Positions 12,817 through 45,084 of a stretch of 64,000 nucleotides of DNA are shown one piece after another; position 1 is the stretch's first letter, and each line of letters begins with the position of its first letter. The notes beneath the pieces were generated by a model. It worked only from the letters and a program-made list of their open reading frames with translations. It did not search any database and was not told the DNA's origin. Location: contig NZ_CP119988.1 in NCBI RefSeq assembly GCF_029338515.1, positions 1,550,001 to 1,614,000 on the forward strand, given 5' to 3'. A program made the translations under genes and the position numbers. The DNA comes from Haloglomus litoreum (GTDB lineage: Archaea > Halobacteriota > Halobacteria > Halobacteriales > Haloarculaceae).

Positions 12817-13834
12817 TCACGTTCCCCTGTAGCTCCTCGTAGGTGAACGTCACGGGCTCGGGCGGTTCTCGGGCCAGCTCGGCGTAGTCCTCGGGCAGCT
12901 CGGCGCTCTCGGTCGCCGGGAACTGGACGTTCCGGACGGCGATCTCGCCCTGGATCTCCGGGCGCAGGCAGAACGACATGAACTGCCGCGCGGCGTCGGG
13001 CTGGTCGGCGTCGGCGAAGACGGCCATCCCCTCGGGGTTGGCGTACCCCTGGTCGTTCAGGAACCGGATCTGGTGTTCGGCCAGGTCCGCGCCCTCCTGG
13101 TCGGCGAACACCTGGTCGGTGGAGTAGGAGACGACCATCGGCGCCTCCCCGTTGCTCCAGGCGCCGTACGCGTCCGACCACGAGCCCAGCACCTGCACCT
13201 CGTTGTCCTGCAGGTCGGCCCAGTAGTCGAGGTAGCCGTCCGCGCCGAACTGCTTGATGGTGTGCAGGAGGAACGCCCGACCCGTCGCCGAACTCCCGGG
13301 GTTCTGTGCGATGAGGTCGCCCCGCATCTCCTCGGCCAGCAGCCCCTCGAACGTCTCCGGCGCGGTCATCTCGGTGCCGTCGAAGACGAGGCTGATGTAG
13401 CCCGTGTCGTACGGCACCGCGCGCTCCTGCGGGTCGAACTCCAGCCCGGGCTTGATGTCCGAGCGCCCCTCGACGTCGCCGGCCGCGGCGAACAGCTCCT
13501 CGTCGAGTTCGCGGTCGACCCGGACGAGGTCGTCGGGGTTGAGCCCCAGGTAGAGGTCGGCCTCGATGTCGACGCCCGCCTGCTGGCGCTGAATGTAGTG
13601 GTTCAGCTCGTTGCTGGGCGTCTGCCAGACCAGGTCGACGTCGAACTCGTCCTCGAAGGCCGACTTGAGCCACGCCCCCGGCGACGAGGAGGGCGAGTCG
13701 ATGAGGGAACTGTACGTCCCGACGACCAGCGTGTCCGTCCCGCCGCTGGTGCCGGGATTGCTACCGAAGGTGCAGCCGGCCAGCGCGACCGTCGCCGCGC
13801 CGCCCGCCGCGGTCAGGAACTTCCGTCGGTTCAC
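12773..13834 (-). CDS. thiB: Thiamine ABC transporter substrate-binding lipoprotein (ThiB/TbpA-like)
   Basis: Captures thiamine or its phosphate outside the cell. The N-terminus has a twin-arginine motif ('NRRKFL') and a lipobox ending 'ALAGC' (Cys21), so it is a Tat-exported lipoprotein. The mature part closely follows E. coli TbpA, as I remember it: 'LYLGLNPDDL', 'VPYDTGYISLVFD', 'LGSWSDAYGAWSNGEAPMVVSY' region and the C-terminal 'GWIDDWERQF'. Its 353 residues fit. A minus-strand TATA-like 'TTAAATAC' lies at about 13857-13864, giving a very short leader, so there is no room for a TPP riboswitch. Control is more likely by a DNA-binding repressor. Confidence 0.9.
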   Translation of the reverse strand: MNRRKFLTAAGGAATVALAGCTFGSNPGTSGGTDTLVVGTYSSLIDSPSSSPGAWLKSAFEDEFDVDLVWQTPSNELNHYIQRQQAGVDIEADLYLGLNPDDLVRVDRELDEELFAAAGDVEGRSDIKPGLEFDPQERAVPYDTGYISLVFDGTEMTAPETFEGLLAEEMRGDLIAQNPGSSATGRAFLLHTIKQFGADGYLDYWADLQDNEVQVLGSWSDAYGAWSNGEAPMVVSYSTDQVFADQEGADLAEHQIRFLNDQGYANPEGMAVFADADQPDAARQFMSFCLRPEIQGEIAVRNVQFPATESAELPEDYAELAREPPEPVTFTYEELQGNVSGWIDDWERQFASN

Positions 13835-25602: not shown

Positions 25603-25603
25603 T

Positions 25604-27991
25604 ATGACCGACACGAACCGGGGTGTGGGACCGGGCGACGACGGGGCCGCCGACGGTGGCGAGGCGAGCCGAGCCTCGTCGGATCGCAAGTCCGACGGTG
25701 GCGTCCGTGACGCTGCCTCGTTCATCGACGCGGCCGACGAGAGCCTGCAGGCGACCTACGAGCCGCCGATGTCGCTCCCGGAGTACGTCGACGCGCTGTT
25801 CGAGCAGCCGGCGCTGGCGAGCCACGCCTCGAAGTACCTGCTCCGGGCCATCGAGGCGGCCGGCCGGCGCACCGTCGTCGAGGAGGGCGAGGAGAAGCAG
25901 CGCTACCGCTTCTTCGACGACCCGCACAACGACGGCGAGCACGCCATCCTCGGCAACACGGAGGTCCTGAACGCCTTCGTCGACGACCTCCGGTCCATCG
26001 CGGCGGGGCGGGGCAAGGACGAGAAGATCGTCTGGCTGGAGGGCCCCACGGCGACCGGGAAGTCGGAGCTGAAGCGCTGTCTCATCAACGGGCTCCGGGA
26101 GTACAGCAAGACCCCAGAGGGTCGGCGCTACACCGTCGAGTGGAATGTCGCGGGCGCCGACGACGGCGCGAGCGCGATGACCTACGGCGGCGGTCCCCCC
26201 GAGCCGGACGAGGACGACTGGTACGCCTCGCCGGTGCAGGCCCACCCGCTGACGGTGTTCCCGGAGGACGTCCGCGCGGAGCTGGTCGCCGAGCTCAACG
26301 CCCGGCTGGACGACCACATCCCCTTCCGCGTCGAGGGCCGACTCGACCCGTTCTCGCGCGAGGCCTACGACTACCTCGAGGAGCAGTACCGTCGCCAGGG
26401 CGTCGAGGACCTGTTCTCGGCGGTCACCGACCCCAAGCACCTCCGCGTGAAGAACTACGTCGCCGACGTGGGCCAGGGCATCGGGGTGCTGCACTCCGAG
26501 GACGACGGCTCGCCGAAGGAGCGACTGGTCGGCTCGTGGATGGCCGGGATGCTGCGCGAACTCGACTCGCGGGGGCGCAAGAACCCGCAGGCGTTCAGCT
26601 ACGACGGCGTCCTCTCGCAGGGGAACGGGCTCCTCACCATCGTCGAGGACGCCGCCCAGCACGCCGACCTGCTGCAGAAACTGCTCAACGTCCCCGACGA
26701 GGGGAGCGTGAAGCTGGACAAGGGCATCGGGATGGACATCGACACGCAGCTGGTCATCATCTCGAACCCGGACCTCGAGGCGCGGCTCAACCAGCACGCC
26801 GACCGCTCGGGGTCGGACCCGCTGAAGGCGCTGAAGCGCCGGCTCGACAAGCACGAGTTCACCTACCTGACGAACCTCTCGCTGGAGGCCGAGCTCATCC
26901 GGCGCGAGCTGACCAACGAGACCGCCGTCTGGACGGCCGACTCCTACGAGGACCTCGCCGAGATGATCCGCCAGCCGGTCCGGGTCCGGGTCCGCGACGG
27001 CGAGGGGGTCGTCCGGGAGAAGGAGCTCGCCCCCCACGCCATCGAGGCCGCGGCGCTGTACGCGGTCGTCACGCGGCTGGACGGGGAGGACGTGCCCCCC
27101 GGGCTCGACCTGGTGGACAAGGCGCTGGTCTTCGACCGGGGCTACCTCCAGGACGGCGACGAGCGCCGGGAGAAGGAGGAGTTCGACTTCGACCCCGACG
27201 CCGAGGACGGCGAGACGGGCATCCCGGTCACGTACACGCGGGACATCATCGCGGACCTGCTCCACGAGGTGCAGGACCGCCACCACCCCGACCTCCCGGT
27301 CGAGGACGTGGTGATGCCGCGCGACCTGCTCAACCGGATGGCCGAGGAGCTGAGCGACACGCCGGTCTTCGGCCCCAACGAGAAGACGGAGTTCGAGAAC
27401 CGGCTCGTCCCCATCAAGAACCACGTGTTCACCGAGCAGGAGGACGACGTGCTGGAGGCCATCATGCGCGAGAAGCGCGTCGACGAGGCCACCGTCGAGG
27501 AGTACATCGAGCACGTCTACGCCTGGGTCGAGGACGAGCAGATCGAGAACGAGCGCGGCGAACTCCAGGACCCGGACCCGCTGAAGATGAAGGTGTTCGA
27601 GACCGAGCACCTCGGGCGGTTCGGCGAGGACGACTACGACGGGACCGACCCCGAGGCCGCGGTCGCGGAGTTCCGCGCCGAGAAGGTCGTCACCGCACTC
27701 AATCGCCACGCCTGGCGCCACCGCGACGAGGACTTCCGGGTGGCGGACGTGAACGTCAAGGAGATCCCCGTCATCAAGACCGTCCTCGGGAGCCACGACT
27801 GGGACGACGTCCGCCGGACGTTCCCGGACTTCGACCCCGTCCAGTGGGACGACCCGCCGTCGGGGACGCAGACGGAGTCGGTGAAGGCCGACACCATCCG
27901 GAACATGCAGGAGCTGTTCGACTACTCCGAAGCGTCGGCCGAACTCACGAGCCGCCACGTCATGGACCAGGTGAGTTACCGATGGGAATGA
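25604..27991 (+). CDS. prkA: PrkA family protein kinase, divergent copy 2
   Basis: A 795-residue paralogue of the preceding gene. Residues 1-45 are a low-complexity acidic/serine extension. Walker A is 'GPTATGKS' (about 147-154) and the Walker B/sensor area reads 'VLSQGNGLLTIVED' and 'QLVIISNPDLEARL'. The C-terminal region is about 100 residues longer than copy 1. The ATG follows the prkA1 stop by one base. Two different PrkA subunits in one operon suggests a hetero-oligomer or a kinase/regulator pair (inference). Confidence 0.9.
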   Translation: MTDTNRGVGPGDDGAADGGEASRASSDRKSDGGVRDAASFIDAADESLQATYEPPMSLPEYVDALFEQPALASHASKYLLRAIEAAGRRTVVEEGEEKQRYRFFDDPHNDGEHAILGNTEVLNAFVDDLRSIAAGRGKDEKIVWLEGPTATGKSELKRCLINGLREYSKTPEGRRYTVEWNVAGADDGASAMTYGGGPPEPDEDDWYASPVQAHPLTVFPEDVRAELVAELNARLDDHIPFRVEGRLDPFSREAYDYLEEQYRRQGVEDLFSAVTDPKHLRVKNYVADVGQGIGVLHSEDDGSPKERLVGSWMAGMLRELDSRGRKNPQAFSYDGVLSQGNGLLTIVEDAAQHADLLQKLLNVPDEGSVKLDKGIGMDIDTQLVIISNPDLEARLNQHADRSGSDPLKALKRRLDKHEFTYLTNLSLEAELIRRELTNETAVWTADSYEDLAEMIRQPVRVRVRDGEGVVREKELAPHAIEAAALYAVVTRLDGEDVPPGLDLVDKALVFDRGYLQDGDERREKEEFDFDPDAEDGETGIPVTYTRDIIADLLHEVQDRHHPDLPVEDVVMPRDLLNRMAEELSDTPVFGPNEKTEFENRLVPIKNHVFTEQEDDVLEAIMREKRVDEATVEEYIEHVYAWVEDEQIENERGELQDPDPLKMKVFETEHLGRFGEDDYDGTDPEAAVAEFRAEKVVTALNRHAWRHRDEDFRVADVNVKEIPVIKTVLGSHDWDDVRRTFPDFDPVQWDDPPSGTQTESVKADTIRNMQELFDYSEASAELTSRHVMDQVSYRWE

Positions 27992-28050
27992 GCGATTACC
28001 GATCAATGAACGACTCGATCAACAGAACCGGACGAGAACTGGTGAGGTAG
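27988..28050 (+). CDS. Possible microprotein between prkA2 and yeaH
   Basis: A 20-codon frame whose ATG overlaps the prkA2 stop (ATGA, 27988-27991) and which fills most of the 66-nt gap before yeaH. The predicted peptide begins '[13 protein letters not shown]'. The base composition is clearly lower in GC than its neighbours. The overlap geometry is the same as for real genes here, but a frame this short can arise by chance, and the stretch may only carry the ribosome site for yeaH. Confidence 0.25.
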
Positions 28051-28057
28051 ACACGTA

Positions 28058-29392
28058 ATGGGACTGAAAGACGACCTCGAACGGTATCGGGAAGTGGGCG
28101 AGGAGAAGCGACAGGACCTCTCCGAGTTCATCCAGTACGGCGACATGGGCCAGTCGCTGCCGGACGAGGTCCGCATCCCGATCAAGATCGTCGACCTGCC
28201 CGAGTTCGCCTACGACCAGCGCGACATGGGTGGCGTTGGCCAGGGCGACGGGGACACGCCGGACGTGGGCCAGCCCGTCGGCCAGCCACAGCCCCAGCCG
28301 GGCGACGGCGACGAGGAGGGCGAACCCGGCGAGGAGGGCGGCGAGCACGAGTACTACGAGATGGACCCCGAGGAGTTCGCCCAGGAGCTGGACGAGGAAC
28401 TCGGGCTCGACCTCGACCCGAAGGGCAAGAAGGTGATCGAGGAGAAGGAGGGCGACTTCACCGACATCACGCGCAGCGGCCCCGCATCGACGCTCGACTT
28501 CGAGCGCCTGTTCAAGCAGGGGCTGAAGCGCAAGCTCGCGATGGACTTCGACGAGGAGTACCTGCGGGAGGCCCTGCGCGTCGAGGGGTGGGGCCCGTCG
28601 ACGGTGTTCGAGTGGGCCCGCGAGCAGCATATCCCCGTCTCGCGGGCGTGGATCGAGACGGCGTACGAGGAGCTCCCACGCGAGGAGCGCGACCGCTGGG
28701 CCAGCATCGAGGAGATGGAGGCCACCGTCGAGCGCGAGTCGACCGCCGCGCGCATCCGGCGGGACGGCATCGACGAGGTGCCGTTCCGGCGCGACGACGA
28801 GCGGTACCGCTACCCCGAGATCGTCGAGGAGCGCGAGAAGAACGTCGTCGTCGTCAACATCCGCGACGTGAGCGGGTCGATGCGCGAGAAGAAACGGGAA
28901 CTCGTCGAGCGGACGTTCACGCCGCTGGACTGGTACCTGACGGGCAAGTACGACAACGCCGAGTTCGTCTACATCGCCCACGACGCCGACGCGTGGGAGG
29001 TTGAGCGCGAGGAGTTCTTCGGCATCCGGAGCGGCGGGGGCACGCGCATCTCCAGTGCGTACGACCTCGCCGCGGAGATCCTGGAGGAGCGCTACCCGTG
29101 GAACGAGTGGAACCGCTACGTGTTCGCCGCCGGTGACTCGGAGAACTCCTCGAACGATACCGAGGAGCGGGTCATCCCGGCGATGGAGGAGATCCCAGCG
29201 AACCTCCACGCGTACGTGGAGACCCAGCCCTCGGGCAACGCCATCAACGCGACCCACGCCGAGGAGGTGGAGGCCCACTTCGGCGACGACTCCAACGTCG
29301 CCGTCGCGTACGTCTCCAGCCCGGAGGACGTGGTCGACGCCATCTACACCATCCTCAGCACGGAGCAGCGCGAGGAGGTGACCGCACAATGA
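28058..29392 (+). CDS. yeaH: YeaH/DUF444 (UPF0229) family protein
   Basis: Partner of PrkA. The 444 residues match the family. Residues 60-100 are a Gly/Pro/Glu-rich linker. The C-terminal half is a von Willebrand factor A-like domain with a metal-site motif 'DVSGSM' (about 270-275), '[11 protein letters not shown]' and '[11 protein letters not shown]', the characteristic DUF444 string. It lies downstream of prkA2 (66-nt gap) and overlaps spoVR by 4 nt (ATGA). Confidence 0.92.
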
Positions 29393-31380
29393 GCCAGCCG
29401 GACCGCATCGCACAGCAGCGCATCGCCGAGGGACTCGAGGAGCCAGTCCGCGAGGCGTCGAACCTCGCACGTAAGCTGGGCCTGGACCCGTTCCCGGTCA
29501 ACTACTGGATCGTCGACTACGACGACATGAACGAGCTCATCGCCTACGGCGGGTTCCAGACCCGGTACCCGCACTGGCGGTGGGGGATGCAGTACGACCG
29601 CCAGCAGAAACAGGGCCAGTTCATGGGCGGCAAGGCCTTCGAGATCGTCAACAACGACAACCCGGCCCACGCCTTCCTGCAGGAGTCCAACAGCCTCGCG
29701 GACCAGAAGGCCGTCATCACGCACGTCGAGGCCCACTCCGACTTCTTCAAGAACAACGAGTGGTTCGGCCTGTTCGCGAAGGACCCCGACGCGGCGGCGA
29801 TGCTCGAACGCCACGCCGAGACCATCCGGGAGTACATGGAGGACCCGGAGATCGACCGCGACGACGTCGAGGCGTGGATCGACCACGTCCTGTGTCTGGA
29901 GGACAACGTCGACCAGCACCGGGCGTTCGTCCCGGCCGAGACGCGCGGCGGCGACGCCGAGGACATCGAGGCGGAGGTCGTCGCCGAGCGGCTCGACGAG
30001 CTGAACCTCTCCGACGAGGTCCGCGACCAGGTGTTCGACGAGGAGTGGCTCGCGGCCCAGGAGGACGACGAGGAGGTCCGCTTCCCGGCCGAACCGGAGA
30101 AGGACATCCTCGCGTTCCTCTGGAACCACGGGAAGGCCTACGACGAGGACGCGGGGAAGGCCGTGGAGATGACCGAGTGGCAGCGCGACGTGCTCGAACT
30201 CCTCCGGAAGGAGGCCTACTACTTCGCCCCGCAGAAGATGACGAAGGTGATGAACGAGGGGTGGGCCGCCTACTGGGAGTCGAAGATGATGACCGACGAG
30301 GCGTTCGCCGGCGACGACGAGTTCCTCTCGTACGCCGACCACATGGCCGCCGTCCTGGGCTCACCGGGCCTCAACCCGTACAAGCTGGGGCTGCAGCTCT
30401 GGAACTACGTCGAGAACACGACCAACCGACGCGAGGTCGTCGAGAAGCTCCTCCGGGTCGAGGGGGTCACCTGGCGGAACTTCGACGACACGGTCGACCT
30501 CGACCACGTGCGGGACCTGCTCGAACCCGAGCCGTGGCTGGTCGACGTGGTCGGCCACCTCGACGACCTCGACCCCGAGGACCCGCGCGTGGACGCCGAC
30601 GCGCTCGCAGCCGCCCGTGAGGGCGAGGTCGACGTCCAGCGCTACCCGTGGAAGGTCCTCACCTACGAGGGCCTGACCCAGCGCCACTACTCGCTGGTGA
30701 AGCCGGCGTTCCGGGGCTTCCTCAAGCGCATCAGCCAGTCGGAGCTGGAGCGCATCGCGCGCTACCTGTTCGACACCGACCGCTACGACTCCGTCGACGA
30801 GGCGGTGGCGGACGTCGACCGCGCGGCCGGCTGGGACCGGATGCGCGAGATCCGCGAGTCCCACAACGACGTGACCTTCCTCGACGAGTTCCTCACCCAG
30901 GAGTTCGTCGACGACAACGACTACTTCACCTACGAGTACACGCACACGACCCAGGACTACCGCGTCACGTCGACGGACTACCGCGACGTGAAGAAGAAGC
31001 TGATGCTGCGGTTCACCAACTTCGGCAAGCCCACCATCGCCGTCGAGGACGGCAACTACGAGAACCGCAACGAGCTGCTGCTGGCCCACCAGTACAACGG
31101 CGTGATGCTGGACATCCGACAGGCCCAGCAGACGCTGGAGCGCGTGTTCCAGCTCTGGGGGCGCCCGGTCAACCTGAAGACCATCGTCAAGGAGGTCGAC
31201 GAGCACGACATCGAGGTGGCGCGGCGGCGCGACCGCGAGCCCGAGCCCGAGGAGGTCGGCAAGCTCCTCCGGTACGACGGCACGGAGTTCTCCGTCGAGG
31301 ACCTCCCGTGGGAGGAGGTCGAGGACATCGCCGCCACGGACGTCGACTACGACACGAAACCCGACGAGTGGCTGGCCTGA
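29389..31380 (+). CDS. spoVR: SpoVR/YcgB family protein
   Basis: Third conserved partner of the PrkA system, 663 residues. Family landmarks include '[19 protein letters not shown]', 'PTRYPHW'-like '[14 protein letters not shown]', '[14 protein letters not shown]', '[12 protein letters not shown]' with conserved histidines, and '[14 protein letters not shown]'. The histidine/glutamate-rich core suggests a metal site. A strong Shine-Dalgarno-like 'gaggaggtgacc' precedes the ATG, which overlaps the yeaH stop. It is the last gene of the operon. Biochemical role unknown. Confidence 0.93.
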
Positions 31381-31505
31381 CCAGGCGCCGGGCCGGCTAT
31401 CACTGGGCCCGGCCCCCGGAGACATGGCCCACGGAGAACCGGCACGCTCCGGTTCGAGGATGGGCTGTGGACAGGTTCTTGACCCCCGGCCCGCAACCCC
31501 GGGTA

Positions 31506-32069
31506 GTGTCCGAGGGTAGCACCGCAACAGTGGAACCCGATGCCCCGACGGAGATGGAGCCGAGCGACATCCACGACATCCTCCGGAACGACCGGCGCCG
31601 GCTCACCATCAAGAACCTGCAGGAGCATCCGGATGGGACGATGGGCGTCCGCGAGCTGTCGGAGGCCATCGCCGCGCTGGAGACCGGTGAGGACCCCCCG
31701 CCGAGCGACAAGCGCCAGTCGGTCTACGTCTCGCTCCACCAGACCCACCTGCCCAAACTGGAGGAGTTCGGCATCGTCTCCTACGATTCGGACGAGAAGA
31801 CGGTCTGCCTGGAGGAGCGGGTCCGGGAGGTCGAGGTCTACATGGAGGTCGTCCCCCGGTACGGGCTGTCCTGGGGCGAGTTCTACTTCGGCCTGGGACT
31901 GCTCGGGACCCTCACCACCATCGCCGTCCTGCTGGGCGTGCCGGGCGTCGAGGCGCTCGGCGTGACCGTCACCGCCACCGTCTTCTTCGTCATCCTGATG
32001 CTGTCGGCGACCTACCACGTCTACGCCCAGCAGGACCGCATCCTGTTCCAGCGGTTCCGGAAGGAGTAG
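31506..32069 (+). CDS. DUF7344 winged-helix membrane-associated regulator
   Basis: Haloarchaeal DUF7344 domain at about residues 20-105: 'SDIHDILRNDRRRLTIKNL' and 'KRQSVYVSLHQTHLPKLEE' are the family's winged-helix landmarks. Two transmembrane helices follow ('FYFGLGLLGTLTTIAVLLGV', 'VTVTATVFFVILMLSAT'). It is a putative DNA-binding protein tethered to the membrane. The GTG at 31506 (187 residues) is favoured by a weak TATA-like site near 31477; the ATG at 31554 is the alternative. It follows spoVR by 125 nt and has a relative at 44021. Confidence 0.8.
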   Translation: MSEGSTATVEPDAPTEMEPSDIHDILRNDRRRLTIKNLQEHPDGTMGVRELSEAIAALETGEDPPPSDKRQSVYVSLHQTHLPKLEEFGIVSYDSDEKTVCLEERVREVEVYMEVVPRYGLSWGEFYFGLGLLGTLTTIAVLLGVPGVEALGVTVTATVFFVILMLSATYHVYAQQDRILFQRFRKE

Positions 32070-34959: not shown

Positions 34960-36216
34960 TCACTCGTTCTCGTCCCCGTCGGCTTCCGATTCCTCAGCGT
35001 CTGCCCTCCCGTCGTCCCCGGACGCTACCGCCTCGACACCCCTCCAGCGTGGCTCCGGCGGTGGGTCGAACCGGTAGGTCCGCTCGTCATCGAGGACCAG
35101 GTACCCACCCTGTTCGAGGTCCTCGATGACCCGATTGTCCGTGTCAATGGCCACGTCGACCAGTCCTTCCAGGGAATCGACCTCGATCCGGGCGTCCGGA
35201 CGCTCGGGCAGAGCCACCGTCCCCGGGGTGATCCAGTCGTCGAACTCCCGCCGGTCGGCCTCGAAGGTCAGCCGCTCCCGGGCGTCGTCGGGGACGTCCA
35301 GCCGACCCGTCGCCCCCGCTCCAGCGAGACCGACGACCCCGACCGCGCCGACGAGGAGCACCAGTGGGGACCCGAGCCGACGGAGCGGGCCGTAACTGTT
35401 CCTCACCGTCAGTTCCCGGGTCGTGTTCTGCCGCGTTCGGGATGTCTCGCTGTCGGTCACCTGGTAGGTCCCCTCGTCGAGCTCGACGGTGACGGCGTGC
35501 TCCGTGAACCGGCTGACCGACTGGCCGTTCACGGTTCCGGTAGCACGGACCCGTGCGAGTACCCTTGCCTCGGTCTCGCCCGGCGTCCCCCCGAGCCGTG
35601 CCTCGATGCGGTCGACGCGCTGCTGGACGGCGGAGACGTTCATCTCAAACGGTGTGCGGAGTCGCTCTCCGGGGGAGAGTCGCGCCGAGCTGGGCGGGCC
35701 GAGCGGCTCCGTCACCCGCCAGTACTCCACCTGTTCACCCTCCTGCTCGCCCACCGACCGCAGTACCAGCGTCGTCGTCACGTCCGTGGAGAGGTTCCCA
35801 CGATCCGAGGCGGTGTATCCGTATCTGAAGGTCCCCTCCAGGCGCGGTGCGATGGACATGAAGTAGACGGGCCGGTCCGAGAGCGTCGTCCCCCGGGTGA
35901 ACACCGGGTTCGAGCGCGTCACCCGGGCCTCGTGACTCCAGGCCGCCGTCGACTCCCAGGTCGAGACGGTCCGGGTCTCGACGTGCGTCCCGGGGTCGAC
36001 GTGTGTCGTGTACGTGAGGCCGCCGCCGAGGAGGACGAGCAGCACGAACAGCGCGAGGAGCGGCTGGGACCGGTCGCGGATGGCCAGACGGGTCCGATAC
36101 CCGGGGGTGGCGGGCCCCCGTGTGGACGTCCCCAGCGTGCCCCCTGGCCCGTCATCGTCGGCCACCTCCGACGTGCCGTCGTCACCGCTGTTCCCAGCCA
36201 TCCTGGTCAGACCCAC
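34960..36216 (-). CDS. DUF5305 family membrane protein
   Basis: A 418-residue protein with a cytoplasmic disordered N-terminus, a transmembrane helix at about 52-72 ('LLALFVLLVLLGGGLTYTT'), a large extracellular beta-rich domain (about 75-285, many 'TRTVSTWESTAAWSHEA'-like strands), a second helix at about 290-312 and an acidic cytoplasmic tail. This matches DUF5305, often found beside SipW-like peptidases in haloarchaea. It is the last gene of the six-gene fibre operon, 42 nt after the signal peptidase. It may anchor, assemble or sense the secreted subunits (inference). Confidence 0.82.
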   Translation of the reverse strand: MGLTRMAGNSGDDGTSEVADDDGPGGTLGTSTRGPATPGYRTRLAIRDRSQPLLALFVLLVLLGGGLTYTTHVDPGTHVETRTVSTWESTAAWSHEARVTRSNPVFTRGTTLSDRPVYFMSIAPRLEGTFRYGYTASDRGNLSTDVTTTLVLRSVGEQEGEQVEYWRVTEPLGPPSSARLSPGERLRTPFEMNVSAVQQRVDRIEARLGGTPGETEARVLARVRATGTVNGQSVSRFTEHAVTVELDEGTYQVTDSETSRTRQNTTRELTVRNSYGPLRRLGSPLVLLVGAVGVVGLAGAGATGRLDVPDDARERLTFEADRREFDDWITPGTVALPERPDARIEVDSLEGLVDVAIDTDNRVIEDLEQGGYLVLDDERTYRFDPPPEPRWRGVEAVASGDDGRADAEESEADGDENE

Positions 36217-36258
36217 CTCCCGGCCGTCGCCGCTAAAGCGTTCCGCTCCACGGTCTCC

Positions 36259-37410
36259 TTATCCCCACAGCCGCCGGAGGCGTCGCGAGAGGCGACTCCC
36301 CTTGTCGGCCTCTCGGCGGCGCAACTGCCCGGAGCCCAGCAGCGCCGCCCCGAGCAGATAGAACCCCCCGCCGTAGACGCCCAGCGTCACCAGTATCGGG
36401 AGCCACGGGTGGACGTCGTGACAGATGTCGAGCAGCCCGACCGGGAGCAACAGGAGGTACCGATGTTCGGTTATGCTGCGGACGTAGTAGCCGGTCTCCG
36501 GGGGCGCGGAGAGCGTCACGGTCGCGTTGACCCGCTCGCCGCCCTGGACCACCATCGGCTCCTGGGGCGTCTCGACCCCCTGACTGGTCGATTCGAGGTA
36601 CGTCACCACCGGCAGGACCCCGCCGTTCCTGACGACGTACGTCCGGTCCTCCGCGGTCCCCTGGCGCACGACCTGCGGCGCCGGCGAGTCCGTCTCGGCA
36701 CTGACGATGCCGTACTCGGTCGGCCCGCTGGGGACGACCATCGCAGCGGTCACGGGTGCCACCATCACCAGCGTCAGCAGGAGGAGGAACACGTGTGGAC
36801 GGCGCCCGCTTCCGGCCCGCTGACGACCCGGGCGCGTGCGCTCCCGGCCCCGTGTCTCCCCCCCGACCGTCTCGAGCCCGTAGAGGACGAGGCCGCAGCC
36901 GAGGACGACGAGCCCGACGACCTGAAGCGCCCCGGTCCCGAGCAGCCCCGAGGTCGACTGCCCGACCGCCCCGGCGAGTCCGGTGACGGCGTCCACGGCC
37001 GTCCCCAGCCCCGGAAGCACGACGACGCTCCCGCCCACCTGGAGCGCGACGGCCCGGATCTGTCCCCGGGTCACCGGTGGCTCCTGGCTGTCCTGGTCCG
37101 TGAAGGGGTTGGCGTCCCCCTTGGTGACGAACCCGGCGTCGGTCTTGCCCACGACCCGGTGTGTCGTCAGTCCGCCGCCGTTCAACTGCTTGGCCTCGTA
37201 CACGACGACGTCCCCCTCCTCGACGGGGCCGGCGAGTTCCGGCGGCACCGCGACGAACCCGTCGCCAGCCGACAGTGTGGGGGCCATGCTCCCTGTCTCG
37301 ACGTAGCTCAGCAGAATCGGCTGCCCCAGCACCGAGCCGGCGACGAGGGCGACGACCCCCACCAGCGCGAGCCCGCGCACCGCGTGCCACGCCGCGCGAC
37401 GACCGTTCAC
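36259..37410 (-). CDS. Type I signal peptidase, archaeal/SipW (S26B) type, with extra membrane domain
   Basis: Serine protease that removes signal peptides. The catalytic serine is Ser41 in 'VETGSMAPTLSAGD'. Histidine 84 in 'LTTHRVVG' replaces the bacterial lysine, as in SipW and archaeal enzymes, and Asp99 lies in 'TKGDAN'. The peptidase core ends near 125. About 260 further residues carry three or four helices and an exterior beta domain, so it is much longer than a plain Sec11 protein. Its place in a cluster of GTGAF-type precursors makes it the likely cognate peptidase. The start forms an ATGA overlap with a 16-codon frame. Confidence 0.9.
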   Translation of the reverse strand: MNGRRAAWHAVRGLALVGVVALVAGSVLGQPILLSYVETGSMAPTLSAGDGFVAVPPELAGPVEEGDVVVYEAKQLNGGGLTTHRVVGKTDAGFVTKGDANPFTDQDSQEPPVTRGQIRAVALQVGGSVVVLPGLGTAVDAVTGLAGAVGQSTSGLLGTGALQVVGLVVLGCGLVLYGLETVGGETRGRERTRPGRQRAGSGRRPHVFLLLLTLVMVAPVTAAMVVPSGPTEYGIVSAETDSPAPQVVRQGTAEDRTYVVRNGGVLPVVTYLESTSQGVETPQEPMVVQGGERVNATVTLSAPPETGYYVRSITEHRYLLLLPVGLLDICHDVHPWLPILVTLGVYGGGFYLLGAALLGSGQLRRREADKGSRLSRRLRRLWG

Positions 37411-37464
37411 GGGCGCTCGTTCGTGCCGTCGGTCAAGTAGTTGGCGACCCGGTTCATCGTGGGA

Positions 37465-39036
37465 TCACCCTTCCTCTTCGAGGTAGATACGGGCGCCCAG
37501 CAGCCCCCCGGCGAGCAGCACCAGCACGGCGAGCGCCGCGAGCACCTCGCCGGGGCCGATGCCCTGTCCGTCGGGCTGTGGCGTCGCGCTCTCCGTCGGT
37601 GGCACTGCTGTCCCGGTCGCGGTCGCTGTGGGCTCGTCCGGCTCGGTCGGCGTCTCCGGCGTCGGCGTCGCCGTCGCCTGCTGCTCGACCACCGCGAACC
37701 GCGAGAACCCGGGGGTGGAAGCACGGATCCGCACCGTGTCACCCTGGCGGCTCACCTGGGCGTCCACCGGTGCCCACGACCCGTCGTGCAGCCGCAGCAC
37801 CCGCAGCGACTCGGCGTCGGCCTCGTCGGCGGGCACCGCGAACTCGACGGTGGCCGGCTGGTCCTCGAGCCTCGGTGGCACGTAGATGTCGGTGGCCTGG
37901 ACGACCTGTCCCGACGGCTGCGGGTCGCCCGGGGGCAGGTCCCGCAGGTCCCGGACCCGGACGCGGCCCTCGGCCGGCGTCATGAACGTGATACGGCGGA
38001 CGCTGGTCGTCTCGAAGACGACCTGCACGCCCGGTGCCTCGGAATCTGTGTCGGCCACGGGGTGTGACTCGTCCGCGGTGACCAGCTCGGGCGGAATCGG
38101 GTCGCCCGGCAGGCCGGGCGTCGACGTCGTCCGCGGCACCACCTGGACGACACCCGCCTCACGCCCATTGACACTGACAGTCCGGTTGCCCGGCTCCGTC
38201 GGGTCGTAGCGGAGTCTCACCGTCGACTGGGTGACCCCGCCGACCTCGACCGTCCGGCTCCCGATCGCGGTTCCGTCCTCCTGGACGGTGAGCTCGATGT
38301 CGTCGGGGGCGCCCGCGGCGTTGATGAGGTCGACCCGGATCCGGGCGGTCTCGTCGATGCCGATGCGCTCGTCGAGCAGCCGGACCTCATCGACCTGCGC
38401 GTCGCCCGTCCTGGGCTCCGGTGGGGCGCCGACGCCACCGCCGCCGCCTCCGCCGCCACCACCGCCGGGAGCACCGCCACCCGGGGGCTCACCCTGGCCT
38501 GGCGGCGTCTCCGGTGGCGTGCCCGGCGGCGGACTCTCGACGGGTGGTGTTCCGGGTGTGGGTGTCGGGACCCGCGTGACGAGATCGATCGACTCCAGGA
38601 GGAGCGCCTCACGCTGTGTACCGGCGCTCTCGACCCGGAGTCCGACCGCCAGGGTCTCCGAGGGTGCCAGCTCCCGGGCGTTCGACTCGCCCTCGACGCT
38701 CTCGCGTTCCTCCCCCGCGTAGAGGGTCACGCTGTCGCTCTCATCGCGGAGGAAGACGGTGACCGGTCGCGAGCGCTCGTTCCTGACGACGAACACCCCG
38801 TCGATCAGGGTTCGGGAGTCGGGATTGATCCCCTCGTACGATACACCCTCGCCGCCCTCGATGCGGATGTCAAGCTGCCCGTCGTCGCCGATCTCGGCGT
38901 ACTCCCCGTTCGGCCCCGACGCCGGCGCCAACTCGACCCGTTCGACGGGCTCGTCGGTGTCGACGGCGACGGTAGCCACGGCTCCGGAGAGGGCCAGCAC
39001 GGCGACGACCGCGGCGACGATGGTGTACCGGTTCAC
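37465..39036 (-). CDS. Membrane-anchored surface protein with DUF1102-like domain
   Basis: A 523-residue exported protein. A hydrophobic signal segment (about 4-25) is followed by a DUF1102-like domain to about 150: 'PASGPNGEYAEIGDDG' parallels the 'PNG.KYVS' block of the three proteins encoded upstream. A Pro/Gly spacer with eleven or more consecutive glycines (about 155-205) follows, then two beta-sandwich-like regions, a Thr/Pro stalk ('TATPTPETPTEPDEPTATA') and a C-terminal transmembrane helix (about 492-516) with a short charged tail. It would display the domain at the cell surface, a possible base for the secreted subunits (inference). Confidence 0.82.
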   Translation of the reverse strand: MNRYTIVAAVVAVLALSGAVATVAVDTDEPVERVELAPASGPNGEYAEIGDDGQLDIRIEGGEGVSYEGINPDSRTLIDGVFVVRNERSRPVTVFLRDESDSVTLYAGEERESVEGESNARELAPSETLAVGLRVESAGTQREALLLESIDLVTRVPTPTPGTPPVESPPPGTPPETPPGQGEPPGGGAPGGGGGGGGGGGVGAPPEPRTGDAQVDEVRLLDERIGIDETARIRVDLINAAGAPDDIELTVQEDGTAIGSRTVEVGGVTQSTVRLRYDPTEPGNRTVSVNGREAGVVQVVPRTTSTPGLPGDPIPPELVTADESHPVADTDSEAPGVQVVFETTSVRRITFMTPAEGRVRVRDLRDLPPGDPQPSGQVVQATDIYVPPRLEDQPATVEFAVPADEADAESLRVLRLHDGSWAPVDAQVSRQGDTVRIRASTPGFSRFAVVEQQATATPTPETPTEPDEPTATATGTAVPPTESATPQPDGQGIGPGEVLAALAVLVLLAGGLLGARIYLEEEG

Positions 39037-39135
39037 GTGTCGGCTCCTGCCTCGATGTGGGGTCGGGGGTACTGCGACTCGACTCGGCGTGGTTCGAGAG
39101 GAACCCGGGGCGTTCCCGGACTGCCTGGCTGCTCG

Positions 39136-39705
39136 TCAGGTGGACCCGGAACCGCTCGACGCCATGTTCGCGACGAACGTCACGCTGTCGAGGATGGTGT
39201 CCGGTCCGTTACCGTCACCGTTGCCGAAGCTGGTGCCGGTGGTATCCACGACGATGTCGACGTCCAGCACGTTTCCGGTCCCCAGTTCGACCGCGTTCGC
39301 CGACCCCTCGATGGAGCCGCCGTTCGCCTCGAACGTCACGAGGTCCTGGCTCACGCCCTGGGGCGTGCTGTCGGTGACGTGGAAGTCCACGGCCTGGGTG
39401 CCCTGGTTCGTCACCGTCAGCACGTCGTTCGCGCGCGTGACCGCGTTCGGCGCCACGCCGTCGGCGTCCTCCGTCGAGAGGTCGATGATGATCTCGCCGG
39501 TCTGTGCGTCCGTCGAGACGTACTTGTTCCCGTTCGGACCGCCGCCGGGGGTGATGGACAGCAGGCTGCCCGCGTCCCCCGCGACCTGGACCGTCGCGTC
39601 ACGCTCGGCCGTGATCTGCGTGAACGCGCCGGTACCGGCGAGGGTGCCGCCCGTGGCGGCGGCCGCTCCGAGACCGATCAGTAGTGTGCGTCGGTTGAGT
39701 TGCAC
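39136..39705 (-). CDS. DUF1102 secreted protein, candidate major fibre subunit
   Basis: The smallest of the three GTGAF-signal proteins, 189 residues. The Tat signal is 'NRRTLLIGLG' (Arg5, Arg6) and the SipW-type cleavage region is 'GTLAGTGAFTQ'. The mature part is one acidic all-beta DUF1102 domain of about 155 residues with 'GPNGNKYVSTD', 'VLTVTNQGTQAVDFHV' and a C-terminal strand 'TILDSVTFVAN'. It has no membrane anchor. DUF1102 is related to camelysin/TasA, which forms biofilm fibres, and to archaeal bundling-pilus subunits. Single-domain architecture makes it the best candidate for the repeating subunit. Confidence 0.85.
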   Translation of the reverse strand: MQLNRRTLLIGLGAAAATGGTLAGTGAFTQITAERDATVQVAGDAGSLLSITPGGGPNGNKYVSTDAQTGEIIIDLSTEDADGVAPNAVTRANDVLTVTNQGTQAVDFHVTDSTPQGVSQDLVTFEANGGSIEGSANAVELGTGNVLDVDIVVDTTGTSFGNGDGNGPDTILDSVTFVANMASSGSGST

Positions 39706-39714
39706 TGTTAACGC

Positions 39715-41769
39715 TCACTGAATACCGGCATCTTCGTTCGGCGTGGTCACGACGTTTTTCACGGTGATGTTGGTCGTGTCATCGTCAGTGGCAACCACTT
39801 CGCCGTCCTCACCGTTCGTTCCGAAGAAGTCCCCGTCGGAGGTGATGGCGTCGTTATCGTAAGCGCGCAGGAACACGCCTTCGCCGTAATTGTTGTTCCG
39901 GGAGGTCGTCGGGGCCGATGCACCGAGACCCTCGGGGCTCTTGTTGTAGTCCCCGCTGATGAGACCGGTGAAGTCCGAACTCTCCACGAGGTGGGGACCG
40001 GACCCGGAGGGACTGACCCCGACCTGTGAGTTCCGAACCGTCACATTCCGGGCCGTATTGTTGCTGCTGCCCGAATAGAACTGGATACCCGTCAGGCAGT
40101 TCTCCGCCAGTACGTCCTCGACCAGGCTGTCCGATCCAGCAAAGCCGACCCCGCTCTCCCCAGATAGGCTCGTATCGGTTCCAAGCACCTCGAAGCCACG
40201 GAGGACGAACCCTGTCCGACCGCTCTTCAACTGGACGATTCGGCTGGATGTCCCTTTGCCGAGATTCGCGTCGATGGTCGGGCGGACACCCGGTGCGGCC
40301 TCGATTGTGAGGTCGTCGACACCGACGTTGAACCCCGCGTAGTCCCCGTCTTTCACGAGGAGGTAGCCACCCTGACCGGCCTGACTGATAGCACTACTGA
40401 TGGTGTTGAACACGCTGGAGGCGGTCTCGTCGGCGTCGACGGTGACTCCGTCCCCGCCCGCGACGCGAGCGGTGTCCACCGTGTTCTCGGTAATCAGCGT
40501 GCGGAACAGTCCATCCTTCGTCGACGCACCGTTGATGGTGACCGACGTACTCTGGACCTCCAGCTTCTGGAGCCCGTTCGTCGAACCGTTGTTCTGGACC
40601 CGGTTGTCCCGGATGGAGTACTCGCCGCCACTGATGCTCCCGTAGATGACGATCCCCTCGGCGGGCGGCGCGTCGAAGTCGTTCCCGAGGAAGGTCCCGG
40701 AGCTCAGGCTCTTGATGACGGCTCCGGCCTTCTGGAACGCACTGTTGTTCACCGCAAGACCGCTGACGGCCTCCGCGTAGAGGCCTGGCGTTCCCGGCGA
40801 GTCACCGTTGATGAGCCGGACCGCTCCGTTGCGGAAGGTGCCGTCGTCGCCACGGAACTCCACCATGTACGGGAAGCTCTGGGGTGAACCGAGGGCGCCG
40901 TAGTCTGTCTCGACCTCGATGCCGTCGAAGGTGACACCGCTGGAATGGACCTGGATCAGGCCGTCGCTGGTGCCGACCTTCACATCGCCGATCTCAGTAT
41001 TCTGCAGCGTGACCGACCCCGACAGCGAGGTGAACGTCAGCCCCGCCTTGTCGATGTAGAGTGCCCCGTTCTGTCCGCCGTAGCTGTACCCACTGGGGGC
41101 ATTGATGATGTCGTCGCTGATGTCGTACGTGCCGGACTCGAAGCCAATCGTCGAACCGGGCTCGGCGGCCACGACCGCTTCGACAACGCTACTGAAGCGG
41201 TTGTTGTCACCACCGGTCGCGCTCGGGCTGACCACGTACTGCGGGGTCGGCGAGGACTGCCCGGCGCCGACCGGGTCCACCGTCGCGTTGATTGTCACCG
41301 AGTCGAGCAGTGCCCCATCCACGTCGTTGTTCAGGGTGTCGACGGTAGCGCCGACCCGGATCTGGCTGCCGACGCCGAGCGAAACAGCGTTGTCGACGCC
41401 TTCGAGCGACGTGTCGTCGCCCGTCGTGCGGAAGGTGACGGCGTCGGAGTCGTCCTCGAAGTAGACGTTCACCGGCTGGGTCCCTTCGTTCTGAACGACG
41501 AGTAACCCCTCTACCTCCGTGACTGCGTCCTTGTTCACGTTCGGGAGGCGGAGTTTGAGCGTTCCGTCGCTCTCCTCGGTCACGAACTCGTCCGCGTTGC
41601 TCGAATCAGCTGGAGTGATGCTCAGTAACGCACTGGCGTCACCCACAGCCGTAACGTTCGCGCTACGTCGGGCCGTCACACTACTGAACGCGCCCGTACC
41701 CGCGAGGGCGCCACTTGTCGCTGCGATTCCACCGAGACCGATCAGCACGTTGCGTCGATTGAGTTCCAT
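39715..41769 (-). CDS. Secreted DUF1102 plus right-handed beta-helix protein A
   Basis: A 684-residue protein. The Tat/SipW signal is 'NRRNVLIGLGG' with 'ALAGTGAFSS'. The DUF1102 domain (about 33-170) includes 'NADEFVTEESDG' and 'LLVVQNEGTQPVNVYFED'. From about 180 to 670 there are two stretches of pectin-lyase-like parallel beta-helix rungs ('FRNGAVRLIN', 'YSIRDNRVQNNGS', 'NNTARNVTVRNSQVGV'). It has no C-terminal anchor. The DNA is lower in GC than the surroundings. It is probably an adhesive or glycan-binding subunit attached through its TasA-like domain (inference). Confidence 0.82.
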   Translation of the reverse strand: MELNRRNVLIGLGGIAATSGALAGTGAFSSVTARRSANVTAVGDASALLSITPADSSNADEFVTEESDGTLKLRLPNVNKDAVTEVEGLLVVQNEGTQPVNVYFEDDSDAVTFRTTGDDTSLEGVDNAVSLGVGSQIRVGATVDTLNNDVDGALLDSVTINATVDPVGAGQSSPTPQYVVSPSATGGDNNRFSSVVEAVVAAEPGSTIGFESGTYDISDDIINAPSGYSYGGQNGALYIDKAGLTFTSLSGSVTLQNTEIGDVKVGTSDGLIQVHSSGVTFDGIEVETDYGALGSPQSFPYMVEFRGDDGTFRNGAVRLINGDSPGTPGLYAEAVSGLAVNNSAFQKAGAVIKSLSSGTFLGNDFDAPPAEGIVIYGSISGGEYSIRDNRVQNNGSTNGLQKLEVQSTSVTINGASTKDGLFRTLITENTVDTARVAGGDGVTVDADETASSVFNTISSAISQAGQGGYLLVKDGDYAGFNVGVDDLTIEAAPGVRPTIDANLGKGTSSRIVQLKSGRTGFVLRGFEVLGTDTSLSGESGVGFAGSDSLVEDVLAENCLTGIQFYSGSSNNTARNVTVRNSQVGVSPSGSGPHLVESSDFTGLISGDYNKSPEGLGASAPTTSRNNNYGEGVFLRAYDNDAITSDGDFFGTNGEDGEVVATDDDTTNITVKNVVTTPNEDAGIQ

Positions 41770-41802
41770 TGTTGTATCGTTGTGAGGTTGGTTGGCGAGC
41801 TA

Positions 41803-43650
41803 TCAGATGCTGAACTTCGAGGTCGCGAACGGTGAGAAGTCGACCTGGACGACGCCGTCGTCGTCGTTGGTACCGGATGCCCGGTCCCCGACGTAGGCGC
41901 CGCTGCCGTCGGCCACGGCCCCGTCGGGATCTTCGACCGGATCGTTGTCTACGACCGGTCCCTCCGACGTCCCGTCGCCGTCGATGTCGCCGAGATTGAA
42001 CGTGTCCGGACCGCTCGTATCTCCCCACCAGTTGTTGGTGGCATCGAGAACGACCGGTTCGGCACCGGAACTCGGGTCGACAGCTTCGTCGACCTGGTTG
42101 ATGACACCTCCCTTGCCGGTCAGGTTGTTCCGGTTGATTCGGGTCGTGCGTACGCTGTCGACATTGGTCGATCCCTCGACGACGACGCCGAAGCCCGGGA
42201 GGGTGTCTTCGCCGTCGTCCTCGTAGTTCCCGCTCCCGTCAGACCCTCCGCTGTCGGTGTCGGATGTGACGTTTAGTTCGTTGTCGAGGATATCGACATC
42301 CGTCGGAGCACCGTTCTTGCTACCCAGAGAGACGCCCTGTGCGAATTCGTTGGCGTCGGTCTTGCCGTCGTCCTTATCGAACGACGGATCCTCCGCGGGC
42401 TCGTCGACATCCGCGTTGATGTTCACCGTGTTGCCGCTGAATCTGATAGTTGAGACGTTACCCTGGGCCTGCAGGCCGTAGACAGCCGGGAACTCTCGCG
42501 AGGTGTCACTCCCGATGTTCACGTTCTTGATCGAGTTATTCCGTACCAGAAGGCCGCTGATGGGGCGTGGCGTGTTTCCGCCTGGATTGGTACCGGCGAA
42601 GATTCCCTTGGGGAAGTCTCCGCCAGTGATTCCGAAGTCTGTCGAGGGGTCGCCACCGATGGTGTTGCCCTCGATGATTACGTCCGACGCACCCTTGCCG
42701 ACGGCGATACCCAGCGCGTTCGTCGAGAGGCCGGTGTCCGCGCCGACTTCCGCAATGCGGTTGTTCAAAACCGAGATTCTGGAGACGCCCTGGCCAAGGC
42801 TGATACCCGCGCTACCACCGGGATTCCGGACCTCGAACCCGTCGACGGTCACGTCGTCCGCAATGATGGTGAACGGATCTGTACTGCTCGCGCTCGAGCT
42901 CTTGACCTCCGGACGCGAGCTCCCGCTGCCGTCACGCCGAATGGTTACGTCGGGTACGTCGACTGTCACCGGGCCTAGGCCAGTCAGCCCGTCCTGCACC
43001 TCGATGGTGTCGGCCGCGGCTGAGCCACTCCGGACGGCGTCGAGTGCGTCCGCGATGGTCGCGAACGTCGTGGCGGTACTGCCGGTTCCATCCACCAGAA
43101 GCGGCCCGACCTGCGCGTTACCGCTGGGCAGGTCCGCAGCCGTGGCGTGGAAGGTGACGCTGCTGAGGATACTCAGGTCCTTGCTCGTCTTCCCCGTCGT
43201 GTCGATGACGAGGTCGATGGTCCGGCTCTCGCCGGGGATCATCTCCTGTGGGCTGTCCAGCCGCGTCCCGTCGGTCGAGCCCTCCACGGAGGCGCCGTTG
43301 ACCTCGAAGGTCGCGAGGTCGCTGTTGGTCCCCGTGTCGGTCACGTAGAAGTTGACCGGCTGAGCGCCCTGGTTGGTGACCGTCAGCAGGTCCTCGAACC
43401 GGGTCCTCGCCTTCGGATTGACCTTGTCGAGCGTGACCGTGATGGTGTCCCCGTTCTTGCTCACGTACTTGTCGCCGTTCGGGCTGTTCGCCGCCTCGAT
43501 TGCGAAGTACGCGCCGGCGTCGCCGGCAGTGGAGACACTGAAGCTGCGCTGTGCCTCCACGCTGGTGAACGCTCCGGTGCCAGCGACGGCGCCGCCGGCC
43601 GTTGCGATACCCCCGAGACCGATCAGCATGTTGCGTCGATTTAGTTCCAT
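41803..43650 (-). CDS. Secreted DUF1102 plus right-handed beta-helix protein B
   Basis: First gene of the minus-strand operon, 615 residues from the ATG at 43650 ('MELNRRNML'). The Tat motif and 'AVAGTGAFTS' cleavage region match its two paralogues. The DUF1102 domain (about 35-180) contains 'NSPNGDKYVSKNGD' and 'LLTVTNQGAQPVNFYV'. The beta-helix region follows, with rungs such as 'ISVLNNRIAEVGAD', 'LLVRNNSIKNVNIG' and a terminal 'TNNWWGDTSGP' typical of such proteins. The frame upstream of this ATG is not needed. A TATA-like site near 43730 would give a leader of about 50 nt. Confidence 0.83.
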   Translation of the reverse strand: MELNRRNMLIGLGGIATAGGAVAGTGAFTSVEAQRSFSVSTAGDAGAYFAIEAANSPNGDKYVSKNGDTITVTLDKVNPKARTRFEDLLTVTNQGAQPVNFYVTDTGTNSDLATFEVNGASVEGSTDGTRLDSPQEMIPGESRTIDLVIDTTGKTSKDLSILSSVTFHATAADLPSGNAQVGPLLVDGTGSTATTFATIADALDAVRSGSAAADTIEVQDGLTGLGPVTVDVPDVTIRRDGSGSSRPEVKSSSASSTDPFTIIADDVTVDGFEVRNPGGSAGISLGQGVSRISVLNNRIAEVGADTGLSTNALGIAVGKGASDVIIEGNTIGGDPSTDFGITGGDFPKGIFAGTNPGGNTPRPISGLLVRNNSIKNVNIGSDTSREFPAVYGLQAQGNVSTIRFSGNTVNINADVDEPAEDPSFDKDDGKTDANEFAQGVSLGSKNGAPTDVDILDNELNVTSDTDSGGSDGSGNYEDDGEDTLPGFGVVVEGSTNVDSVRTTRINRNNLTGKGGVINQVDEAVDPSSGAEPVVLDATNNWWGDTSGPDTFNLGDIDGDGTSEGPVVDNDPVEDPDGAVADGSGAYVGDRASGTNDDDGVVQVDFSPFATSKFSI

Positions 43651-44020
43651 GTTACGTGCGTGCCCGACCCCCCCCACGACCGCGGCAGGACCCGGGCACC
43701 TGGCAATGAACCTGGGGGCTACCCACTTCGTATTAGGCTGCGAGAGATTCTACAGGCGAGCATAGATGCATCACAGGGAAGTATAGAAGTCTATAATGTT
43801 TCATTAAAGCAGCCTATGGTTCTTGTATTCGGATTACTGTATCAAGATATCTGATATACTTCTTCCCGGGGTGACCGAGTGTTCAGGGGGGTGTTGGCTT
43901 TCGCCGGGCGGGCATCCCCGGTCTTTGATAGATGGTTCGAGAGCACAATATTTATCCGAGGGAAAGCATCGAATTACACTGTATATTGGCGGATGGCGTC
44001 AACCGACGCTACAGAAAGCC
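43651..44020. promoter_or_regulatory. AT-rich divergent promoter region of the fibre locus
   Basis: This 370-nt spacer separates the secreted-protein operon (minus) from the DUF7344 regulator (plus) and is much more AT-rich than the rest of the window, especially 43725-43860. Minus-strand 'cctaatacg' near 43730 is a candidate TATA for the operon; 'caatatttatc' near 43947-43957 fits the regulator, with a leader of about 45 nt. Alternative TTG starts here would only extend the regulator with low-quality sequence. No further gene is evident. Confidence 0.6.
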
Positions 44021-44605
44021 ATGGGGGGAAATCTGTCGGAACATCGGGATGAACTGTTCGATCTGCTCAGCAACAGTCGCCGGCGCTACGCGTGGCACTA
44101 CCTGAAGTCGTGCGAGGGCCGCGAGGCGATACCGCTCGGTGAGGTGGCCGAGCAGGTGGCCGCCTGGGAGAACGACAAGCGGGTCGGAGAACTGGACACG
44201 GCCGAACGGAAGCGCGTCTACACGTCGCTGCAGCAGCAGCACCTGCCACGGATGGACCGGGCCGACATCGTGGACTTCGAGGACAACGAGATACGGCTCG
44301 CCGACCGGGCCGACGAGTTCGACGTCTACATCGACATCGTCGACGATGACGACATCCCCTGGAGCGAGTACTACCTCGGTCTGGGGGCGGTGTGTGCGGC
44401 GCTCATCACGGCGGTATGGGTGACGGGTATCCGGCTCCCGTTCGTCTCCGGCCTAGGCTGGGCGGCCATCGTGGTGCTGGCGTTCGTCGGCTCGGCGGCG
44501 GTCCACGTGTACATCGACCACCGGCGGAAGCTCGGCCAGTACGAGGAACCGCCGGGTGTCCGTAGCTCGCGGGAGACGGCTAACGCCGTCCCCGCCGACG
44601 ACTGA
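44021..44605 (+). CDS. DUF7344 winged-helix membrane-associated regulator (fibre locus)
   Basis: A 194-residue protein of the same family as the one at 31506. The winged-helix domain reads 'DELFDLLSNSRRRYAWHYL' and 'ERKRVYTSLQQQHLPRMD', followed by 'DDIPWSEYYLGLGAV', two transmembrane helices (about 125-170) and a short tail. It is the likely local transcription regulator of the divergent operon and of its own partner gene. The ATG at 44021 ('MGGNLSEH') is the first credible start. Its stop overlaps the next ATG by one base (TGATG). Confidence 0.82.
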   Translation: MGGNLSEHRDELFDLLSNSRRRYAWHYLKSCEGREAIPLGEVAEQVAAWENDKRVGELDTAERKRVYTSLQQQHLPRMDRADIVDFEDNEIRLADRADEFDVYIDIVDDDDIPWSEYYLGLGAVCAALITAVWVTGIRLPFVSGLGWAAIVVLAFVGSAAVHVYIDHRRKLGQYEEPPGVRSSRETANAVPADD

Positions 44606-45084
44606 TGGAGGGACTCAGACGGCGCGCTGGGCTGGTACTCATCGCTGTGGGTGTCGTCCTGCTAGCCACGGCGACGTACGGATTCAGCTCCATCGCCGCC
44701 GACCGGACGGTAGACGTGGGAACCACCCCCGACAGCGGTGCGTACCTGGGCATCACGGAATCCGGCGCCGGCGAGGTCAACGTCAGTCGCTCGCCGTCAC
44801 CCGACGTTCTGGACCTGACCAACAACTTCGAAGGCGATCTCTCTCGGGTCTCGGTGGCGGTCGCCTCGACCGACGGAACGGCGGTCGGCCCCGCTGACCT
44901 GGAGGCGACAGGTCCCCAATCCATCGCGGTCGGGGCGACGGGGTCTGTCTCGCTCCAGTGTGCGAGCGATAGCGACGCCGAGGAGGACGCGGTGACGGTG
45001 ACCGTCGAGATTACGGCGACTGGGGAGGGCGTGTCTGTCGAGACCAGCGAGGCGGTGACGCTCGACGTGGACTGCAAGGAGTAG
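44605..45084 (+). CDS. Small exported protein related to the DUF1102 set
   Basis: A 159-residue protein. It has an N-terminal hydrophobic signal/anchor ('AGLVLIAVGVVLLATATYGF', about 8-27) and a mature beta-rich domain. 'RTVDVGTTPDSGAYLGI' resembles 'VSTAGDAGAYFAI' of the secreted proteins across the divergent promoter, and 'LDLTNNFEGDLSRVSV' resembles their 'LTVTNQG' strand. It lacks the Tat motif and the GTGAF box. Two cysteines lie in the C-terminal half. One-base coupling to the regulator suggests co-expression. It could be a minor or inhibitory subunit (inference). Confidence 0.7.
   Translation: MEGLRRRAGLVLIAVGVVLLATATYGFSSIAADRTVDVGTTPDSGAYLGITESGAGEVNVSRSPSPDVLDLTNNFEGDLSRVSVAVASTDGTAVGPADLEATGPQSIAVGATGSVSLQCASDSDAEEDAVTVTVEITATGEGVSVETSEAVTLDVDCKE

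Follow-up and report, generated by a model that had tools for sequence, protein, structure and literature searches.

Tat-fimbriae and related surface fibres

Fimbriae exported by twin-arginine translocation (Tat), or tafi, were described in haloarchaea in 2025 by Galeva et al. (iScience; as cited in PMC12687288), and the families TafA, TafC, TafE and TafF are curated as NCBIfam NF052520-NF052523. The Tafi pilus of Natrinema sp. J7-2 is available as Protein Data Bank (PDB) entry 9p0a. Other filaments considered here are the bundling pilus of Pyrobaculum calidifontis (7ueg), of the AbpA type that has been described as TasA-like (PMC9674648), the TasA-SipW-TapA system of Bacillus (PF12389) and the thread filament of Sulfolobus (7pnb). 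We analysed a window of 64,000 nucleotides (nt), positions 1550001-1614000 of the 4.7-Mb genome of the haloarchaeon Haloglomus litoreum, in which an earlier note had proposed a TasA/AbpA-like extracellular fibre locus with its own SipW-type peptidase; coordinates below are those of the window. With a probability of about 0.72, this locus, which holds a complete gene set, encodes a thin surface fibre of a divergent, tafi-like type. It very probably works as tafi do, and it fails every curated tafi cut-off, so that it is not filed in those equivalog families.

The locus shares with tafi a Tat-type signal carrying a GTGAF box, a homologous domain with its fold, a TafC-like protein, and the divergent module with a long signal peptidase, a DUF5305 protein and a DUF7344 protein. 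It differs in that all its proteins score under the curated cut-offs, those of TafA and TafF included, and in having three paralogous subunits in tandem. What is unusual here are the beta-helix domains fused to two of the subunits and the TafC-like protein without the extra domain of canonical TafC (a lectin where identified). AbpA bundling pili have the same beta-sandwich fold at an identity of only 14%, and the Sulfolobus thread, also built from a beta-sandwich subunit (Z 6.4), is 6% identical, a match no better than the unrelated folds listed. The TasA system resembles the locus in pairing a substrate with a dedicated archaeal-type peptidase, in the aromatic residue right after the cleavage box and in a likely N-terminal donor strand. 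It differs in its signal, which is of the Sec type, in that the window peptidase fails the SipW model (22.5 vs 190 bits), and in the subunits, for which no homology was detected when the Taf profile was compared by hhalign with 19 TasA-family sequences from Paenibacillales (probability <1%). Of the known systems, the tafi pilus, which the earlier note did not name, stands nearest to the locus, rather than TasA. In Paenibacillus albidus, a sipW-tasA-tasA operon (L150, 814-2720) has two TasA-family genes in tandem.

Organization of the locus

The eight open reading frames lie where the earlier note had placed them, six of them co-directional (34960-43677, intergenic gaps of 9-99 nt) and two divergent (44021-45084), and an independent gene caller based on codon usage picked identical genes. 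The features are the following.

34960..36201, minus strand: DUF5305 membrane protein with two predicted membrane segments, constantly associated with the module (Pfam PF17231, 182.5 bits, over cut-off)
36259..37410, minus strand: long (~380 amino acids, aa) archaeal-type S26 signal peptidase (TIGR02228, 52.5 bits vs a cut-off of 51.85)
37465..39036, minus strand: membrane-anchored Taf-domain protein of 523 aa, likely fibre base (sub-threshold DUF1102; C-terminal hydrophobic segment)
39136..39705, minus strand: small 189-aa Tat-signal Taf-domain subunit (TafE, 98.5 bits)
39715..41769, minus strand: 684-aa Tat-signal protein with a Taf domain and a NosD-like right-handed beta-helix region (TafE, 73.5 bits; NosD, 5.5e-7; Beta_helix, 23.2 bits vs a cut-off of 25.9)
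41803..43650, minus strand, start corrected to ATG 43650: Tat-signal Taf domain with a beta-helix-like region (TafE, 94.7 bits; NosD, 9.8e-6)
43651..44020, no strand: putative AT-rich divergent promoter region (base composition)
44021..44605, plus strand: DUF7344 winged-helix-type membrane-tethered protein, putative regulator (PF24035, 94.1 bits, over cut-off)
44605..45084, plus strand: TafC-like exported protein limited to the N-terminal domain of TafC (64.4 bits with NCBIfam TafC, across positions 7-143 of its 373)

A 142-nt imperfect repeat (66-74% identity) stands in register at the starts 39705, 41769 and 43650, which makes ATG 43650 a likelier start of the third subunit gene than GTG 43677. 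The DUF5305 and DUF7344 assignments made from the letters alone both held, as did the AT-rich character of the divergent region, with 50.6% G+C over 43678-44019 vs 67.6% in the operon. A search of Rfam gave no match.

The secreted subunits belong to the Taf superfamily

We looked for the families to which the three secreted subunits belong. All three proteins (39136-39705, 39715-41769 and 41803-43677) have a twin-arginine (RR) signal, the GTGAF box and a homologous domain in common, as had been claimed. The domain had been called DUF1102 (PF06510). This label is right at the level of the superfamily, because homologues in other genomes exceed its cut-off, but within the window the only match is the 37465-39036 protein, at 17.7 bits below the gathering threshold of 22.2, and the three subunits have none of their own and match TafE instead. 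A whole-genome DUF1102 search gave no match, its controls likewise giving none. The TafE scores of the subunits, listed above, stay below the cut-off of 155 bits, TafA (cut-off 190 bits) is matched at 32-40 bits, mostly across the signal region, and no protein of the whole genome exceeds the TafA cut-off. The small divergent protein stays below the TafC cut-off of 410 bits; it is 34% identical to residues 7-147 of the TafC of a reference cluster (L063). For TafF (cut-off 420 bits), the anchor protein gave no match at E values up to 1.

In a tree of the domains, the 189-aa and 624-aa window proteins group with the protein of a syntenic locus in genome G307 (support 95/97). The 684-aa protein groups with the beta-helix fusions of other genera, Halosegnis included, at a support (85/92) under the tree's own threshold. 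Canonical TafE sits in separate clades, with weak support at the deep nodes.

Fold and sequence point to the Tafi pilin

A profile of 40 aligned mature Taf domains, compared with the PDB, gave one clear match, the Tafi pilus 9p0a (E 1.2e-21); the 9p0a pilin was also matched when the 189-aa protein was used by itself (E 3e-11). AlphaFold2 modelled the mature 189-aa protein as an all-beta structure, a beta-sandwich, with a predicted local distance difference test score (pLDDT) of 82, in which residues 1-20, the proposed donor segment, are unplaced (pLDDT 44-52). The earlier note had suggested comparing such a model with AbpA, and 7ueg was indeed the top Foldseek match (E 2.3e-4), 9p0a being the only other one with E < 0.001. 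VIA-align placed 9p0a at Z 9.3 (3.3 Å, 132 residues) and 7ueg at Z 8.2 (4.1 Å, 129 residues), followed from Z 8.0 down by general immunoglobulin (Ig)-like or PapD-like folds. These Z values are modest and 7ueg is level with the first unrelated row; stronger evidence comes from the sequence match to 9p0a. The TasA entries 8aur and 5of1 were not among the 50 fold-match rows listed, which carries no weight alone.

The 9p0a chain has 188 modelled residues, the last being residue 215 of a 215-residue sequence. If it has no internal gaps, the N-terminus of that pilus would be the F of the GTGAF box.

The membrane-anchored protein lacks the N-terminal segment

The 37465-39036 protein consists, in order, of a Sec-like signal, a Taf domain lacking the N-terminal segment, a CARDB/filamin-like region and a C-terminal transmembrane segment, and its match to profile A1 begins only at position 13. 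It thus has the features of the membrane-anchored relative that had been suggested as a base. We compared 102 Taf proteins, 64 with the N-terminal segment and 38 without it, some of the latter being gene calls with a truncated start. None of the 64 has a C-terminal membrane helix vs 22 of the 38 (Fisher 1.9e-12), and RR signals, as called, are found in 45/64 vs 1/38. Such a contrast would be expected if subunits assemble by donor strands from a base in the membrane.

A dedicated signal peptidase accompanies Taf genes

The peptidase has a Ser-His-Asp motif, and residues S31, H74, D89 and D95 (numbered from the Met at 37380) are invariant in 33 long-peptidase homologues. A C-terminal exported Ig/CARDB-like domain sits between membrane segments; this domain (36262-36810) weakly resembles the CARDB repeats in the anchor proteins of related loci, and it might help to pass on cleaved subunits.

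Linkage was counted in 45 genomes of the family, a sample less biased by selection than the count of module partners given below. Results showed that 40 of 46 long peptidases lie at most 10 kb from a Taf-domain gene, and five of the six unlinked ones are on contigs without any Taf match, in most cases short draft contigs. Taf genes occur in every one of the 33 genomes that hold a long peptidase (Fisher 2e-8). Among short peptidase-like matches linkage is the exception, with one of 11 near a Taf gene, and the genome studied here contains two modules together with a single short peptidase that is unlinked. The S26 peptidase of the earlier note is of the archaeal type and linked to fibre-type substrates, as proposed there, but not a SipW by the SipW model.

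The module recurs in haloarchaea

A search of 392 genomes of the order detected TafE-type domains in 284. We then considered 37 stretches (36 loci and the window), mostly picked for TafE matches, so that the counts are biased towards taf neighbourhoods; 32 of them have a long signal peptidase, 31 DUF5305, 29 DUF7344 and 27 a TafC-type protein. The common layout is a DUF7344-TafC pair divergent from the Taf subunit(s) and the anchor, with the peptidase and DUF5305 genes close by. Its recurrence in dozens of haloarchaeal genomes, which the earlier note had suggested looking for in other Halobacteria, means that the gene set is no chance grouping. The reference cluster L063, all of whose Taf proteins exceed their cut-offs (TafA 243.9, TafC 574.3, TafE 227.1 and TafF 516 bits), also holds the same peptidase, DUF5305 and DUF7344 as the window.

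Apart from the anchor, the syntenic loci of G307 and Halosegnis rubeus contain a single, fused subunit of ~750-790 aa. The Halosegnis rubeus locus (L077, NZ_QJOW01000001, 7731-15266) is the only Taf locus of that genome; it encodes just one Tat-signal subunit, a beta-helix fusion of 792 aa, and a small Taf protein was found nowhere in the genome. The small subunit that had been put forward as the repeating unit is present in the window, as the 189-aa protein, but related loci do without one.

The genome under study has a second Taf module (L010, C1:3956000-3975000; 4913-12926), made of DUF5305, a long peptidase, a TafC-like protein, DUF7344, a 186-aa subunit and a 728-aa anchor. Downstream of it, 85 nt away and in the same orientation, is a CetZ-like tubulin gene.

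Beta-helix and other cargo domains

The cargo of Taf subunits is variable. Two of the locus subunits bear beta-helix (NosD-like) regions, and in homologues elsewhere the shared N-terminal domain is fused with VWA, lectin, PKD, NosL or beta-helix domains, more than 100 aa following the Taf domain in 25 of 64 Taf proteins. Few relatives of the beta-helix region of 39715-41769 were found in the 382 genomes searched, suggesting that beta-helix modules change fast, and the beta-helix part of the Halosegnis protein had no match in a PDB sequence search. One further locus (L059, 2350-9504), next to a long peptidase and DUF5305, encodes a Taf-domain protein of 2409 aa that has six PKD repeats and perhaps a beta-propeller.

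Canonical TafC has a lectin domain and the TafC-like protein of L074 has a bactofilin-like solenoid; that of the window is the N-terminal domain alone, without an extra C-terminal domain. Across 27 loci, which are related to one another and whose protein lengths were compiled by hand from gene calls, TafC is shorter where the largest Taf subunit is longer (Spearman -0.64, p 3e-4), a pattern noticed before it was tested. Where subunits are large (13 loci), TafC is below 230 aa in 10, vs 1 of the 14 others. This inverse relation is suggestive only. A bolder idea, which we consider tentative and rather doubtful, is that of a Tat-exported fibre with a large beta-helix on every repeating subunit, that is, a densely decorated scaffold showing carbohydrate-binding or carbohydrate-cleaving modules, the cargo domain having been transferred during evolution from TafC onto the subunit of the shaft; in Halosegnis rubeus the 792-aa fusion is the one Taf subunit available.

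A model for the fibre and its alternatives

We propose a model based on the homology, the fold, the module, the coupling to the peptidase and the domain architectures established above. Considering their conserved RR signal, the three subunits would be exported by Tat in a folded state, and the peptidase of the locus would cut at the box as GTGA|F, which agrees with the presumed N-terminus of 9p0a. The N-terminal ~18-20 residues of one subunit (AFTxxxAxR...) may then fill the open beta-sandwich of the next, so that the fibre would grow by donor-strand exchange in a TasA-like manner, as the fold and the unplaced N-terminus suggest. The 523-aa protein, with its Taf domain lacking that segment and its terminal membrane helix, is the probable base, accepting the first subunit. 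At the tip or along the fibre, the two beta-helix subunits could show adhesive or carbohydrate-binding modules, the bare TafC-like protein may be a minor or cap subunit, and the DUF7344 protein is a candidate regulator of the operon.

Several points weigh against a tafi-like fibre. The window proteins all score below the curated tafi cut-offs, and none matches TafF. The window Taf domains fall outside the canonical TafE clade, in a tree whose deep nodes are weakly supported. The syntenic G307 and Halosegnis loci lack a small subunit, as does the whole Halosegnis genome, and polymerisation there would need the large fused protein. Finally, the contrast between segment and anchor may partly stem from the shared ancestry of one anchor family.

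These syntenic loci, with Halosegnis having no other Taf subunit, and the frequency of large fusions would also fit an explanation without a fibre, in which the products are surface proteins, either beta-helix adhesins or carbohydrate-active proteins, that are secreted and each anchored separately, with no more in common than a Taf-type N-terminal domain and a dedicated peptidase. This we consider unlikely, as the best match in fold and sequence is to a pilus of this family whose structure is solved, the module content is that of canonical taf clusters and the N-terminal segment is unplaced as in donor-strand subunits.

We also asked whether the locus could make a short tip fibrillum, its proteins being minor tip subunits on a rod from the second Taf locus (C1:3964721) or from another small subunit. 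The second module is complete and has a 186-aa subunit, the window proteins are closer to TafE, named an adapter, than to TafA, and beta-helix domains fit tip adhesins. Against this, a small subunit, an anchor and a peptidase are all encoded in the locus itself, and no other locus type is present in Halosegnis, making a tip role quite improbable. A true TasA/camelysin homologue with SipW is highly improbable, since the shared geometry of the signal box, the 31% identity of the peptidase to Paenibacillus SipW across the catalytic part and the presence of AbpA among the top fold matches stand against the failed profile comparison and SipW model. An origin from type IV pili or archaella fits poorly with the Tat signals and the beta-sandwich fold of the subunits.

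Another putative DUF7344 gene in the window

A cluster at 23533-32069 is followed by another putative DUF7344 gene. Its products probably resemble PrkA-type kinases, a YeaH-like protein and SpoVR.

Significance for haloarchaeal surfaces

Most of the haloarchaeal genomes that were sampled have Taf-type domains, as a rule close to a signal peptidase of their own, and Taf subunits are fused to many binding domains such as lectin, VWA, PKD and beta-helix. For the tafi-like fibre proposed here, the comparison provides a testable rule for anchoring, namely that the base would be a membrane-fixed Taf domain without the N-terminal segment, and likewise a testable rule for the position of the cargo.

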